Below are positions 3,108 through 62,643 of a stretch of DNA of 64,000 bases, piece by piece. Under the pieces are notes generated by a model. It had not been told where the DNA came from and did not search any database. It was given only the letters and a program-made list of their open reading frames with translations. How positions within the stretch are numbered: position 1 is the first letter of the stretch; each line of letters opens with the position of its first letter. Position numbers and translations under genes: made by a program. Source of the DNA: Gammaproteobacteria bacterium (GTDB lineage Bacteria; Pseudomonadota; Gammaproteobacteria; Steroidobacterales; Steroidobacteraceae). The stretch lies in the NCBI GenBank assembly GCA_011391405.1, contig JAABQQ010000260.1, forward strand, positions 1 to 64,000. The letters are read 5' to 3'.

Positions 3108-3806
3108 TCAGCCCTGCTTCGCCTTCTGGACGCTGTCCTCAGTGACCGGCACGATCGTGATTTCCACGCGCCGGTTCTGAGCACGGCCCTCTTCAGTCTC
3201 GTTCGTCGCAACGGGGTGAGCCTCGCCGGCGCCAACCGTCACGATGCGCGCCTGCTTGACGCCGTGGCTCGCGAGATAGGCCGCGACGCTGCTTGCACGA
3301 CGCTCTGACAGCTGCTGGTTGTACGTGTCGCTACCGACGCTGTCGGTGTGCCCGGCCACCTCGATGACCGTCTTGTCGAACTCCTTCAGCGTTGCCGCAA
3401 CCTTGTCCAGTACCGGGTAGAACTGGGCATTCAGGTCGGAGCTGTCGAACGCGAAGGTCACGCCGCCCGGCATGTCGAGCGTGATGTTGTCGCCCGTGCG
3501 CACGACATCCACGCCGGTGCCCGCCATCTGCTGGCGCAGCTTCGCTTCCTGTTTATCCTGGTAGTACCCGACCGATCCGCCGACGAGCGCGCCGGCGGCC
3601 GCTCCGATCATGGCGGACTTGAAAGGATTGTTGCCGGCGCTCAGCAGTCCGACGACCGCGCCAGCAGCCGCTCCGTACCCGGTGCCCTTGCGGGTCTTTT
3701 CTTTCTCGGGGTTCGTCGCGAAGTCTTCCATCGAGGCACACCCGGCCAGGGCCACCGCGGCAGCGGCAAACAGGGCGATGAAGCCGGATCTTGCTGAACG
3801 ATTCAT
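3108..3806 (-). CDS. OmpA-family peptidoglycan-binding lipoprotein (YiaD-like)
   Basis: 232-residue outer-membrane lipoprotein. A signal peptide ends in the lipobox LAGC (Cys near residue 24). A glycine-zipper segment follows (GYGAAAGAVVG...GAAAGALVGGSVGYY, about residues 42-80). The C-terminal half is an OmpA-like domain with the FAFDSSDLN start, GHTDSVG and NRRVEI motifs, which binds diaminopimelate in peptidoglycan. Starting at the ATG at 3806 puts AGGAG at correct spacing; an upstream in-frame ATG would add 22 residues before the signal peptide. The gene lies 23 bp upstream of the phasin gene on the same strand. Confidence 0.9.
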   Translation of the reverse strand: MNRSARSGFIALFAAAAVALAGCASMEDFATNPEKEKTRKGTGYGAAAGAVVGLLSAGNNPFKSAMIGAAAGALVGGSVGYYQDKQEAKLRQQMAGTGVDVVRTGDNITLDMPGGVTFAFDSSDLNAQFYPVLDKVAATLKEFDKTVIEVAGHTDSVGSDTYNQQLSERRASSVAAYLASHGVKQARIVTVGAGEAHPVATNETEEGRAQNRRVEITIVPVTEDSVQKAKQG

Positions 3807-9607: not shown

Positions 9608-10639
9608 TCAGCCGGAGTCGAACGACGCGAGGACCTGTCGCTCGACCCAGGTCGACCCCGCGGCGCCATCGTAAAAGCCGCAATGCCCGCCGTAGCGCGT
9701 ACGCGTGATGGTGAGCACCGCAGGTCGTGCAATGCGCTCGAGGTCAGCCGCGGGGATGATCGGGTCGTCGTCCGCCGCGATAATGCGAACGCGCGCGTCA
9801 CGCAACGCCTCCAGCGGCTCGAGCGCCTGGTCGACCAGCGCGTAACCCCGCAGGTAGTCCGGCAACGACGGAAACCCGCCGTAGCCGCAGGCCAGCCGAT
9901 GGGTCATCTCGGTGAGGTTGCCCAGTTCCAGGATGTCGTCGAGCGAGTGGTAAACGTCGGGCCACGCCTCGCGTTTCCTGCGCAGTGAGCGACGCCATTT
10001 CCACACGAAGTAATCGCGGTACAGCGCCCACCCCGACTCGAGGCGCGCCAGCGTGTGCTCGGGATCGATCACCGGGCAGACCGCGACGATGCGCGAGACG
10101 TCGATGCCCGCCGCAGCGGCGCGTGCGCCGACACGCAGGCAGAAATTACCGCCGAGCGAGAACCCCGCGAGCACGAGTCGCTTGCCCGGATGTTGTCGCT
10201 GCAGTTCGCGCACGGCACCGACCACCTCGGCGATGCGGCACGAATGGAAGATTCCGGCATTGAGACGGTGACTCTCGCCGTGATCGCGCAGATTGAGGCG
10301 TGCGACATCGTAGCCGGCATCGAAGAGCTTCTGCCCGAGCGAGAGCAGGTACAACGAGTTTGCGCTGCCCTCCCAACCATGCAGCAGCACGGCAAGGCGG
10401 TCGGACGGCGGCCGTCCCGAATCCGCCTGCGTTGCGACCAGCGCGAGCAAGCGCACGCCGTCGCCGCAATCGACTATCGCCTCGCGCGACGCGTGGCGCA
10501 GCACGGAGGCGCGCCGCTCGACCCCCGGCCGGCGCAGCGGCAGGCTCGGGTAGATCGACTGCACGTGGTGATGTCGCAACCGCCAGGGCGGCACGAAATC
10601 AAGTAACGCGTCTGCGGCTGGTCGGGGCGCCTCGCTCAT
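9608..10639 (-). CDS. yheT: YheT-family alpha/beta hydrolase
   Basis: 343-residue cytoplasmic hydrolase of the YheT/ABHD1-3 family. The oxyanion region is LAVLLHGWEGSANS. The nucleophile elbow is GFSLGGN, the acid is in AADDDPIIP, and the histidine is in TRYGGHCGF, giving a complete Ser-Asp-His triad. Family members are carboxylesterases of unknown natural substrate. Its start overlaps the stop of the upstream reductase by 4 bp, making it the third gene of a leftward operon headed by the membrane response regulator. Confidence 0.88.
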   Translation of the reverse strand: MSEAPRPAADALLDFVPPWRLRHHHVQSIYPSLPLRRPGVERRASVLRHASREAIVDCGDGVRLLALVATQADSGRPPSDRLAVLLHGWEGSANSLYLLSLGQKLFDAGYDVARLNLRDHGESHRLNAGIFHSCRIAEVVGAVRELQRQHPGKRLVLAGFSLGGNFCLRVGARAAAAGIDVSRIVAVCPVIDPEHTLARLESGWALYRDYFVWKWRRSLRRKREAWPDVYHSLDDILELGNLTEMTHRLACGYGGFPSLPDYLRGYALVDQALEPLEALRDARVRIIAADDDPIIPAADLERIARPAVLTITRTRYGGHCGFYDGAAGSTWVERQVLASFDSG

Positions 10640-11733
10640 GCGGCAGGGGGGCGCGGATTCCAGGCGCGGTCACGGACGATCTCAATGCGGCTCGAGCCGG
10701 GCAGGGTCTCGACGAAGGCGCTGCCCATGACCTGCGATGGCGTGCGGTGACCTGACTCGGCGGGTTTGCCCTCGAGCAGGTGCTGGGCTATCGCGAGCGA
10801 TGCATGCACGGTGACGTCGTAGCCATTGGCGACGCGAACCCGCGCCGTCACCCGGTCGCCGCTCGGCGCCTGGACTTCGCCCCACACCCGCATGGTGTTC
10901 GCCGCGCGCGCAGCAGCATCCGGTCCGGCCGGGCCTCTGGCGGCCATGCGTTGCAGCAGTCCCCGCAGCGGACCGAACCGCAGCATCCCGCCGAACCTGT
11001 TCAGGCGCTTCAGCCTGGCGATGCTGGCGGCGGGCATCGCGATGTAGCACTCGATGTTGCCGATGCCGGTCGTCCAGTAGGCGGTGCTCACGTCGCCCCA
11101 CGGAATCGTCACTGCCGTGAGCGTGCCGTCGCCGAAATCGATGTCGCGCTCACGGAAAGCGTGAGCCACCGGCGTGATGCGCCCGCTACTCCGGATGCGT
11201 CCGCCGTGCGCAAGGTTTTCGATGCTGGTCTTGAGCGTGCCTCGACTCGGCCGGCCGCGCGACGCGAAACCCAGTGCCAGGTAGGTCGCGTCGGGCAGCT
11301 CCTGCTGCAGACGCGCCGCAACGCAATCGGTTGGAACCACGTCGAAACCCGTGGCCGGGCACAACACGACGCCCGCCTGGCGCGCCGCCGGATCACGCCC
11401 ATGCACGGCTTCGAGCACGTCGATTTCGCCGGTGATATCGAGGTAATGACTGCGCTGGCGGAGACACGCTGCAACCATCGGCGCCGACGTGGCCGCAAAC
11501 GGCCCCGCGCAGTGCAGCGTCACGGTCGCGCCTTGCAGCGCGCGATCGAGTGCGCCGGGATCGTCGAGCGACGCGATGCGACAGTCGCAACCGAGTTCCT
11601 GCGCCAGGGCAGCGACCGCCGTCCCATTGCGGCCGGCCAGCACGGGATGGAGTCCGCGGCGAACCGCTTCGCGCGCGATTAATTCGCCCGTGTATCCCGT
11701 GGCGCCGTAGATGAGCAGTCGCGCCGCGCTCAT
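10636..11733 (-). CDS. Saccharopine-dehydrogenase-like reductase (trans-acting enoyl reductase type)
   Basis: 365 residues. The N-terminal Rossmann fold opens with LLIYGATGYTGELIAREAVRRG, followed by the LAGRN motif and LHCAGPF near residue 75, typical of the saccharopine dehydrogenase NADP-binding family. HYLDITGEIDV and CPATGFDVVPTDC are also family-typical. In mycobacteria such proteins include lipid enoyl reductases; in proteobacteria the substrate is unknown. The first and last codons overlap both neighbours by 4 bp, so it is co-translated with the response regulator and the YheT hydrolase. Confidence 0.8.
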   Translation of the reverse strand: MSAARLLIYGATGYTGELIAREAVRRGLHPVLAGRNGTAVAALAQELGCDCRIASLDDPGALDRALQGATVTLHCAGPFAATSAPMVAACLRQRSHYLDITGEIDVLEAVHGRDPAARQAGVVLCPATGFDVVPTDCVAARLQQELPDATYLALGFASRGRPSRGTLKTSIENLAHGGRIRSSGRITPVAHAFRERDIDFGDGTLTAVTIPWGDVSTAYWTTGIGNIECYIAMPAASIARLKRLNRFGGMLRFGPLRGLLQRMAARGPAGPDAAARAANTMRVWGEVQAPSGDRVTARVRVANGYDVTVHASLAIAQHLLEGKPAESGHRTPSQVMGSAFVETLPGSSRIEIVRDRAWNPRPPAA

Positions 11734-13226
11734 GAGGCGGGCAGGACGTGGAATTCCACTCGATTGTTCTGGGCCGCGAACGTGTTCCAGCGGCCGGCAG
11801 TGGTCTTCTCGTCCTGCTCGGGATACGCGACGGGCTGGCTGCGCCCGCCGTTGACGACTTCGATCTGGATGTCGCCACCGGTCCGGCGGCGCAAGGTCGC
11901 GGCGAAATTGGCGAAGTCGACTGACTGCCGCTGCGCCACCGAAAGCGAGTCGTCGAAGGGATTACCCACCAGATCGCACTTGGTCGCTGCGAGGTTGACG
12001 TCTGCCGGGGAGAAGCCTTCGTTCGCATTGCCGGCCAGGCAGAAGTCGCCGACGTAGGACTCGACGCGGATGCGGCCCTTGAACTGCTGCGTTTCGAGCA
12101 TCGAGGTCAGCGCGCGCAGCCGTTCGAGGCGACTGCCCGCCAGCGGGGCCTCGCCGTATGGCACGTACTCGGTCGCGATCGGGCCCGCGGTCGATCCAGC
12201 GATGCCTCCGTCCGCCGACGGCGCCGCCAGAGGGGCGTTGCTCGCGACGGTGGCACTTGCCGCTGCGGCCGCGATCATCGCCGCCGCTTTCGCCCGTTCG
12301 ACCGCGGCCTTCGAGTCTGCGAGCTCACGCACGAGGGTCGCATTGGACGCGTTCGCCTGCCACGCCACGTAGCCGAGCACCGCCGCGGGTACGGCCGCGA
12401 AGAGGGCGGTGAGCACGACCGGCCACCACTGGCGGCGCGGTGGCTGTGGCGCCAGCGATTCGAAAGTGGGTGACAGCGGAATTTTGCCGATACTTTCCTT
12501 CATCTCGCTGGTCAGCCGGCGCGCGAACGCCTCGAACGTGGCGAGCAGGAACCGACGCTGCTCGGTCAGCTGTTCCCGCACCAGATGCTGGATGGAATTA
12601 CGCAGACCCGCCTGAAGTTCGGAAGCAAGCGCGGGCGTGAAGGCCATCGAAGCCGGTGAAGGCGCCAGCGGCGCCCCTGTCAACGCCGGCCGGGTCCCAG
12701 TGGTCGATAACGCGTCGAACGCCTGGGCGTCGTCCGGGTTCGCAGCCGCCAGCGCGGCAGCCATCGCCGCCTCGTCGGGCGATCTTTCGGCCGCCATCGC
12801 CGCAGCCGCCGCCGGGCCCGGGAACAGTGCCTGGCGTTGGGTTCGCCGATCCGGCAGCAGGTGGAGCTGGTACAGAATCCGTGACACGTCGACCGGCCGC
12901 ACCGTCTTCGGCAGCACGCCGACCGCGCCGAGGGCACGCGCCTGGCTGACGTACAGCTCGCCTTCCTGCGAGGTGTACATCATCAGCGGGATGGTCGCGG
13001 TCAGCGGGTCGGCCTTGATGGTCTGCACGGCCTGGAACCCGTCCATGCCCGGCATCAGGTGATCCATGAAGATGACGTCGGGTCGGCTCCGCTGCAGGTA
13101 TTCGAGCGCCTGCTCGGCCGACTCAGCCGTATCCACGGTCATGCCTTGCTGTTCGAGCATCCGGCTCAGGATGACTCTGGCCGATCGTGAATCGTCCACG
13201 ATCAGGGCGCGCTTGCCCGTCGTCAT
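11730..13226 (-). CDS. Membrane-anchored response regulator with periplasmic C-terminal domain
   Basis: 498 residues with an unusual layout. Residues 5-125 are a complete receiver domain: acidic pair D11-D12, phospho-acceptor D55 (IFMDHLMPGMDG), T85 and K107. An Ala/Pro-rich linker (135-200) and a charged helical region (200-250) follow. One transmembrane helix lies at about 268-289, then a coiled-coil-like stretch, then about 190 periplasmic residues with two cysteines (FCLAGNANE, TKCDLVG) and an ending FAAQNNRVEFHVLP that faintly recalls OmpA-like domains. The start is the ATG at 13226, directly before the receiver. It has no output DNA-binding domain. It heads a three-gene operon. Function unknown. 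Confidence 0.75.
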   Translation of the reverse strand: MTTGKRALIVDDSRSARVILSRMLEQQGMTVDTAESAEQALEYLQRSRPDVIFMDHLMPGMDGFQAVQTIKADPLTATIPLMMYTSQEGELYVSQARALGAVGVLPKTVRPVDVSRILYQLHLLPDRRTQRQALFPGPAAAAAMAAERSPDEAAMAAALAAANPDDAQAFDALSTTGTRPALTGAPLAPSPASMAFTPALASELQAGLRNSIQHLVREQLTEQRRFLLATFEAFARRLTSEMKESIGKIPLSPTFESLAPQPPRRQWWPVVLTALFAAVPAAVLGYVAWQANASNATLVRELADSKAAVERAKAAAMIAAAAASATVASNAPLAAPSADGGIAGSTAGPIATEYVPYGEAPLAGSRLERLRALTSMLETQQFKGRIRVESYVGDFCLAGNANEGFSPADVNLAATKCDLVGNPFDDSLSVAQRQSVDFANFAATLRRRTGGDIQIEVVNGGRSQPVAYPEQDEKTTAGRWNTFAAQNNRVEFHVLPAS

Positions 13227-13248
13227 GTAATCCCTGGGTCCTTCTGGA

Positions 13249-13265
13249 GGCACCTGACAGGTGCC
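13249..13265. promoter_or_regulatory. Perfect palindrome GGCACCT-GAC-AGGTGCC
   Basis: A 7-bp inverted repeat with a 3-bp centre in the divergent promoter region between the membrane response regulator (leftward from 13226) and the EF-G-like gene (rightward from 13394). It lies 23 bp upstream of the response regulator start and could be an operator or a 5'-leader hairpin. No T-tract follows, so it is not an intrinsic terminator. Confidence 0.4.
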
Positions 13266-61324: not shown

Positions 61325-62643
61325 ACTCGCTGCGCAACAAGCTGCTGGCCTGGTTGCTCGGCGCCGTGGCCCTGGTCGGTACGGCGGGCGCCTGGGTGAG
61401 CTATCGCAATGCGCTCACCGAGGCCAACGCGTTTTTCGACGATCACCTGCGCCAGACCGCGCTGCTGTTGCGCGACCAGGCCTACGGCTTCTCACCCACA
61501 CCCGGCTTGGCGCAGGAAATACCCGACTACGACTTCGTGGTGCAGGTGTGGACGCTGGACGGCGTGCGCGTGTACCTGTCGCGTCCGCACACCATGCTGC
61601 CCGGACTGACGAAGCTCGGGTTGTCGACGGTCACCACGCCGACCGGCCGCTGGCGCGTGTTCGGCGTCGAGGCGCGAGGACGCGTCATCCAGGTCGCGCA
61701 ACCGATGAACATCCGCGAGCAGCGCGCCGCGCACCTCGCGCTGCGGACCATCGCGCCGTTTGCGTTCCTGTTGCCGGCGCTGGCGCTGCTGGTCGTCTGG
61801 ATCGTCGGGCGTGCGATGCAGCCGGTGCGCCGCTTTGCCGCCGTCCTGCGCAGCCGCAAGCGTGGCGCGCTCGATCCGCTGGACGGCGGGGGACTGCCGG
61901 ATGAGATCCGGCCGGTCGCGACCGCGTTGAACGATCTGCTGGCACGGCTCAAGGAGGCGATCGAGCGCGAACGCTCTTTCATCGCCGATGCAGCTCACGA
62001 GTTGCGCACGCCGTTGACTGCGCTCGACCTGCAGGTGCAGTCGCTGCGGGCCGAGGCCGCCGGGGGCGTTTACGACGACGCCGTGCAGCGGCTCGAAGCC
62101 GGCGTGGCGCGGGCCGCTCGCCTGGTCGAGCAGTTGCTGGCGCTGGCGCGCGAGGAGCGTGACAGCAGCCGCGTGCACGAACCCGTGGCCTTAGCGGAGC
62201 TGGCCCGGGAGGTCATCGAGGAGATGCTGCCCCTGGCGGACAAGCGTGGCATCGACCTCGGCATGGAGCGAGCGGATGCAGTCCGTGTCTCCGGGGATCG
62301 GGAAGCGCTGCGCGTGCTGATCCGCAACCTGCTCGACAATGCCATTCGCTACTCGCCCGCACGCGGCCAGGTGGACGTTTCCGTGGAACGCCGGGATGGC
62401 GCCCCACCGCAGGCAGTGCTGGTCGTCGCCGATGGCGGCCATGGAATCCCGCTGCCAGAGCGCGAACGGGTCTTCGATCGCTTCCATCGCGTCCCTGGCA
62501 CCGCTACCCCCGGCAGCGGCATCGGGTTGGCGCTGGTGCGCTCGATCGCTGCGCATCACCACGCGCACGTCCGCCTCGGCGAGGGCCCGGACGGACGCGG
62601 GCTGCGAGTGAACGTCGAGTTTTCCGCGCCCGAACCGTCTTAA
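61321..62643 (+). CDS. Sensor histidine kinase (QseC/PmrB-like)
   Basis: 440 residues. Transmembrane helices near 8-28 and 143-161 enclose a periplasmic sensor of about 110 residues. A HAMP-like linker leads to the H-box FIADAAHELRTPLTALDLQ (phospho-His226). The catalytic domain has the N box NLLDNAIRYSP and GHGIPLPERE, and ends with GSGIGLALVRSIAAHH. It pairs with the upstream regulator. The signal is not evident. Confidence 0.92.
   Translation: MNSLRNKLLAWLLGAVALVGTAGAWVSYRNALTEANAFFDDHLRQTALLLRDQAYGFSPTPGLAQEIPDYDFVVQVWTLDGVRVYLSRPHTMLPGLTKLGLSTVTTPTGRWRVFGVEARGRVIQVAQPMNIREQRAAHLALRTIAPFAFLLPALALLVVWIVGRAMQPVRRFAAVLRSRKRGALDPLDGGGLPDEIRPVATALNDLLARLKEAIERERSFIADAAHELRTPLTALDLQVQSLRAEAAGGVYDDAVQRLEAGVARAARLVEQLLALAREERDSSRVHEPVALAELAREVIEEMLPLADKRGIDLGMERADAVRVSGDREALRVLIRNLLDNAIRYSPARGQVDVSVERRDGAPPQAVLVVADGGHGIPLPERERVFDRFHRVPGTATPGSGIGLALVRSIAAHHHAHVRLGEGPDGRGLRVNVEFSAPEPS

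Follow-up and report, generated by a model that had tools for sequence, protein, structure and literature searches.

The locus and its response regulator

The window, a stretch of 64,000 nucleotides of gammaproteobacterial DNA (contig JAABQQ010000260.1), carries at 11730-13226 on the minus strand a gene for a response regulator of 498 amino acids, read from an ATG at 13226 within an open reading frame (11730..13253, minus strand) that starts with GTG. The sequence-only reading had placed a membrane-anchored response regulator in this interval; its architecture stands and its strand is here corrected to minus, the plus-strand reading containing seven stops. A gene for EF-G lies divergent to it, and the two genes downstream overlap in an apparent operon. 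The features are as follows, with their main evidence in brackets.

9608..10639, minus strand: alpha/beta hydrolase gene (PF00561), third of the apparent operon, overlapping the PF03435 gene by 4 nt (Pfam)
10636..11733, minus strand: saccharopine-dehydrogenase-like gene (PF03435), downstream of the response regulator gene and overlapping it by 4 nt (Pfam)
11730..13226, minus strand: whole response regulator gene, receiver, transmembrane helix and OmpA-like fold, 498 aa (ORF, PF00072, hydropathy, alignment)
11733..12176, minus strand: C-terminal domain (residues 351-498) with an OmpA-like fold, presumably periplasmic (AlphaFold2, Foldseek, VIA, invariant residues)
11976..12041, minus strand: C396 to C417, invariant Cys pair, presumed disulfide (74/74)
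12237..12359, minus strand: extension of the helix past the membrane, residues 290-330, perhaps a coiled coil (AlphaFold2 model)
12360..12425, minus strand: transmembrane helix, residues 268-289 (hydropathy 2.21, sole strong segment; model helix 268-330)
12486..12635, minus strand: helix of residues 198-247, cytoplasmic, preceded by a linker of low confidence (AlphaFold2 model)
12852..13214, minus strand: receiver domain, residues 5-125 (Pfam 8-113), with D11, D12, D55, T85 and K107 (PF00072, 5.3e-25; invariant in 74/74)

Homologues were collected by a contig scan from which the best 80 of 423 loci were retained, and 73 of these were aligned at full length with the window protein (n = 74), seven loci that were cut at a contig end, uncertain in their start or fused being excluded (L014, L053, L060, L063, L074, L081 and L085). 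The same full-length architecture in 73 other proteins, at 34-92% identity, rules out a chance fusion or a mis-assembled frame, as does the spread of C-terminal domain matches over 23 of the family's 25 genera, and we consider the probability of such an artefact negligible. At one excluded locus (L063:4995-7316) an open frame of 773 aa fuses the response regulator, matched to residue 465, with the downstream alpha/beta hydrolase, and this may be either a natural fusion or a sequencing error.

The receiver matches PF00072 over residues 8-113 with an E-value of 5.3e-25 and 88.2 bits against a curated cut-off of 30.2, and the phosphoacceptor Asp, acidic pair, Thr and Lys that mark a response regulator are all present. 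D11, D12, D55, T85 and K107 are invariant in all 74 aligned full-length proteins (from the best 80 of 423 loci), which bears out the earlier description of an intact receiver. The closest solved receivers are RR468, CheY and PleD, and Val104 occupies what we take to be the position of Tyr106 in CheY. No soluble output domain was found between the receiver and the membrane helix in a Pfam search. The AlphaFold2 model shows one unbroken helix over residues 268-330, running from the membrane into the presumed periplasm, and pLDDT values fall below 50 in the linkers 170-197, 254-264 and 331-346.

The sequence-only reading had also proposed looking for operon partners in other genomes, and none proved to be conserved across lineages. 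The target gene was recognised in 95 of 101 neighbourhoods; in 44 of the 95 a hydrolase gene on the same strand follows it within two genes, and in 12 the saccharopine-dehydrogenase-like gene comes next together with the hydrolase. The hydrolase is thus common among near relatives, and at the distant loci (L122-L141) the neighbours differ and none is shared with those near relatives, such that a conserved operon partner is rejected. A crude motif search of the 101 neighbourhoods revealed no kinase-like ORF. The window's genome yields 22 HATPase_c matches, none of them tied to the response regulator gene, and kinases therefore exist in this genome. One HATPase_c match falls within the window at 62293-62625 on the plus strand, in an open frame of 457 aa about 49 kb from the response regulator gene.

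Membrane segment and C-terminal domain

The window protein contains a single hydrophobic segment, with a mean 19-residue hydropathy of 2.21 from residue 270. By the same 19-residue mean, the best segment reaches at least 1.66 in all 74 proteins and no second segment exceeds 1.60 after residue 130. Exactly two Cys residues, spaced by 20-22 residues, lie beyond the segment in 74 of 74 proteins, and none precedes it in 72 of 74, a pattern that fits an oxidising compartment for the C-terminal domain. A C396-C417 disulfide is probable. The positive-inside test, applied to flanks of 15 residues in the 74 proteins, did not favour a cytoplasmic N-terminus; the mean number of K/R is 1.6 before and 2.1 after the segment, with more before it in 13 proteins, fewer in 40 and equal numbers in 21. 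As these counts lend that orientation no support, the topology is assigned from the receiver, the single segment and the arrangement of Cys residues. A receiver whose pocket is complete should lie in the cytoplasm, and a single membrane segment then presumably puts the C-terminal domain on the outer side.

The C-terminal domain comprises about 153 residues and lies in the region (290-498) for which the sequence-only reading had suggested structure prediction; predicted alone with AlphaFold2, it gave a confident fold (mean pLDDT 94.2, pTM 0.86). R366, G384, C396, C417, Y468, W480, N481, N487 and R489 are invariant in 74 of 74 proteins (from the best 80 of 423 loci). In Foldseek searches against solved structures, domains of the Pal, OmpA, MotB and TagL types ranked at the top with probabilities up to 1.00, at E-values near 1e-3 (6.7e-4 listed) and TM-scores of about 0.3-0.6 (0.42/0.57 listed). 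VIA gave Z values up to 6.3, a range that possibly reflects a common arrangement only, and most of the rows listed are OmpA-type. Among viral proteins no fold match was found at E <= 0.001.

At the level of sequence this likeness disappears. PF00691 is absent from the 18 Pfam families that any of the 74 members matched at E <= 1, and neither Pfam (74 members) nor NCBIfam (four members) gave a credible family for the domain. The best E-value against sequences of solved structures was 1.5, hhalign against 30 OmpA domains from the window's genome and related ones gave a probability of 0.3%, and an OmpA profile scored at best 5.0 bits on the real C-terminal domains against 5.9 on the best shuffle. 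An OmpA-like end had been claimed from the letters; the claim draws some support from the modelled fold, by Foldseek, and none from the sequence, by Pfam, hhalign and profiles. It is this structural likeness without sequence similarity that leads us to call the domain, as modelled, OmpA-like in fold and not a member of the OmpA family.

In the model, the order of strands and helices in the C-terminal domain resembles that of the periplasmic domains of Pal, OmpA (C-terminal), MotB and TagL (PF00691 type), whereas the former carries a Cys-bearing insert after its second strand. OmpA-like domains have a conserved Asp and Arg that serve diaminopimelate binding. On visual inspection, none of the C-terminal domains compared shows an equivalent of the H-T-D in the OmpA alignment, so that canonical diaminopimelate binding is doubtful. 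The terminal N-N-R-V-E resembles, again by eye, what we take to be the N-R-R-V-E end of OmpA domains, the aligned stretches ending at N-R. MotB and TagL are likewise attached to a membrane helix. A domain of the PF00691 OmpA/Pal type also occurs elsewhere in the window, at 3171-3458 on the minus strand, 8 kb from the response regulator gene.

Taken together, the anatomy described earlier, namely an intact receiver, a single membrane helix and a domain, presumably extracytoplasmic, that has two Cys and resembles OmpA in its modelled fold, proved right and is conserved across the 74 aligned proteins, with the fold search supporting its last part.

Distribution and receiver relatives

A search of other genomes for the same architecture had been called for, and it was found in many relatives. 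With the C-terminal domain as query, matches occurred in 107 of the 150 genomes searched from the family, covering 23 of 25 genera and almost always in single copy, in 25 of 369 genomes of the class, the window's own included, and in two of 299 genomes of a phylum sample, one of them again the window's own. Of 33 loci at class and family level that were examined by motif, 31 have a receiver in frame with the domain and the other two start at a contig end; the Cys pair is present in all 33. One contig (L061) titled Bythopirellula, a planctomycete name, carries the response regulator gene, otherwise gammaproteobacterial, at 35% identity and is probably a mislabelled or mixed bin.

A model of the receiver subfamily, based on 36 of the 74 aligned receivers, gave 20 matches at E <= 1e-30 in 185 genomes of the class, seven of them in proteins that the C-terminal domain model does not recognise. 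Five proteins (L193-L197) share with the window protein the subfamily receiver, a long helical middle and a membrane helix but end at the membrane; this helix is C-terminal and no periplasmic domain follows it. They have no family name beyond PF00072. In another protein (L191:4548-5981) the subfamily receiver is combined with one membrane helix and some 200 unrelated extracytoplasmic residues, two Cys among them; the last of the seven, L192, is short and lies near a contig end. Scores under the subfamily model are 106-236 bits for members and at most 75 for the other receivers of the window's genome that were tested.

A tree of 72 receivers separates the subfamily from nine generic ones (support 97/95). 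The tail-anchored members are basal and the OmpA-type members group together, except that L191 is placed among them. The tree was built on 126 columns, with many forks unresolved and the root set by the generic outgroup, and it left out L001, L003 and L004, which repeat others, together with matches under 30 bits. On its simplest reading a tail-anchored receiver came first, and the OmpA-fold domain would have been gained once and exchanged once. Because the basal members are tail-anchored and lack a periplasmic domain, membrane tethering looks older than the OmpA-like domain, and this would support a positioned, tethered receiver at least as strongly as outward signalling.

Bactofilin was considered as a candidate partner. 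Its gene adjoins the response regulator gene, convergent and with a gap of 1-12 nt, in six Woeseiaceae-like loci (L051, L052, L053, L056, L058 and L075), and lies within 4 kb of it in 20 others. In the same six loci a PAS-GGDEF-EAL protein, annotated as such in L051, is encoded on the opposite side. Co-occurrence of bactofilin and the gene, computed as a comparison for the ChpA figures given below, had p 0.046; no dependence was found, since bactofilin occurs without the gene and the gene is present in seven of 16 good genomes lacking bactofilin.

Possible modes of action and known systems

The reading that we favour, giving it about an even chance, is a membrane-tethered response regulator without DNA-binding or enzymatic output that acts locally at the inner membrane. 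An unlinked histidine kinase would phosphorylate D55 of the cytoplasmic receiver, as the invariant pocket suggests, and the receiver and its helical linker would take effect locally at the inner membrane by contacting other proteins, probably through altered dimerisation or partner binding. The membrane helix and the periplasmic OmpA-fold domain, the latter probably stiffened by a disulfide, would bind peptidoglycan, or else a partner in the periplasm or outer membrane, and so hold the protein at a site in the envelope; the OmpA-like domain may do nothing other than place or hold the receiver. We prefer this positioned receiver to outward or inward signalling because the relatives keep the tether and not the periplasmic domain.

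A phosphorylation signal passed outward to the envelope, as the sequence-only reading had proposed, is a reading weakened by the five subfamily anchors that lack a periplasmic domain and by the one with an unrelated extracytoplasmic part. Phosphorylation of D55 would here alter the dimer geometry of helix 268-330 and open or close the OmpA-fold domain, a phospho-controlled envelope clamp that we hold to be a tentative possibility, well short of an even chance. The joint invariance of the receiver pocket and of periplasmic Y468, W480, N481, N487, R489 and both Cys, the model helix unbroken from the membrane into the periplasm and the lack of a soluble output domain in between all argue for it, whereas tail-anchored members have no periplasmic part to serve as signal target and the low-confidence linkers listed above would damp mechanical coupling. 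That the receiver would act directly on the periplasm through one helix, controlling the grip of the OmpA fold with neither transcription nor a second messenger, is rather doubtful. Membrane sensors usually read outside in, and the invariant Cys pair in the presumed periplasm is consistent with a domain that would sense envelope or redox state and alter the rate of receiver phosphorylation or dephosphorylation, the protein serving as a sensor or phosphate sink; however, no transmitter or output domain is present, a kinase and a partner would be required all the same, and the crude motif search found no kinase-like ORF in the 101 neighbourhoods. We consider this direction improbable.

Very improbable, in our estimate, is that the protein serves ChpA, the chemosensory kinase of the type IV pilus (Pil-Chp) system, as a receiver positioned at the envelope. 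The nearest other receivers in the window's genome by the subfamily model (69-75 bits) belong to a PilG/PilH/ChpA-like cluster, presumably a type IV pilus chemosensory-like one in which PilG/PilH-like receivers accompany a ChpA-like kinase of roughly 1865 aa (L175, G000:C282:8000-26000). Among good genomes, 62 of the 63 that carry the gene also have ChpA, as do 21 of the 32 that lack the gene (Fisher p 1.5e-5). However, 75 bits is a generic score for a receiver, the p-value rises to 0.18 once one genus, which supplies nine of the 11 double absences, is removed, and ChpA and the response regulator are not encoded together and share no neighbourhood. Neither ChpA nor bactofilin co-occurrence settles the partner.

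Response regulators are usually soluble switches for genes, enzymes or motors. The window protein is a response regulator with a seemingly undescribed membrane and presumed periplasmic output, and it may link intracellular phosphate signals to the cell envelope. A conserved, single-copy, membrane-spanning receiver that bears a periplasmic domain in many gammaproteobacterial lineages, together with a wider subfamily of tail-anchored receivers, would mean that phosphate signals can be positioned directly at the inner membrane or sent across it, and whether receivers signal outward becomes testable in cultured Povalibacter uvarum and Steroidobacter agaridevorans, both named records among the matches.

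We recognised no published account of a receiver, transmembrane helix and OmpA-fold architecture in the open-licence literature, a scope that does not establish its absence from print. With CheY-like receivers (PF00072; Thermotoga RR468 and CheY) the window protein shares fold and pocket, its receiver part reaching TM-scores as high as 0.94 on the target, but those receivers are soluble and the window protein is membrane-anchored. The nearest printed precedent that we found is the archaeal MetOD3-REC-MetOD2 group, of which a table in PMC5847659 lists four members from one methanogen genus. As presented there, these regulators also hold a receiver in a membrane-anchored protein, but MetOD3 precedes the receiver and a predicted soluble output follows it, unlike the arrangement in the window protein. 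If the outward reading is right, LapD, which is reported to signal inside-out (PMC3032553), would be comparable in that a cytoplasmic signal is read out in the periplasm, although LapD reads c-di-GMP whereas the window protein has a phosphorylatable receiver.
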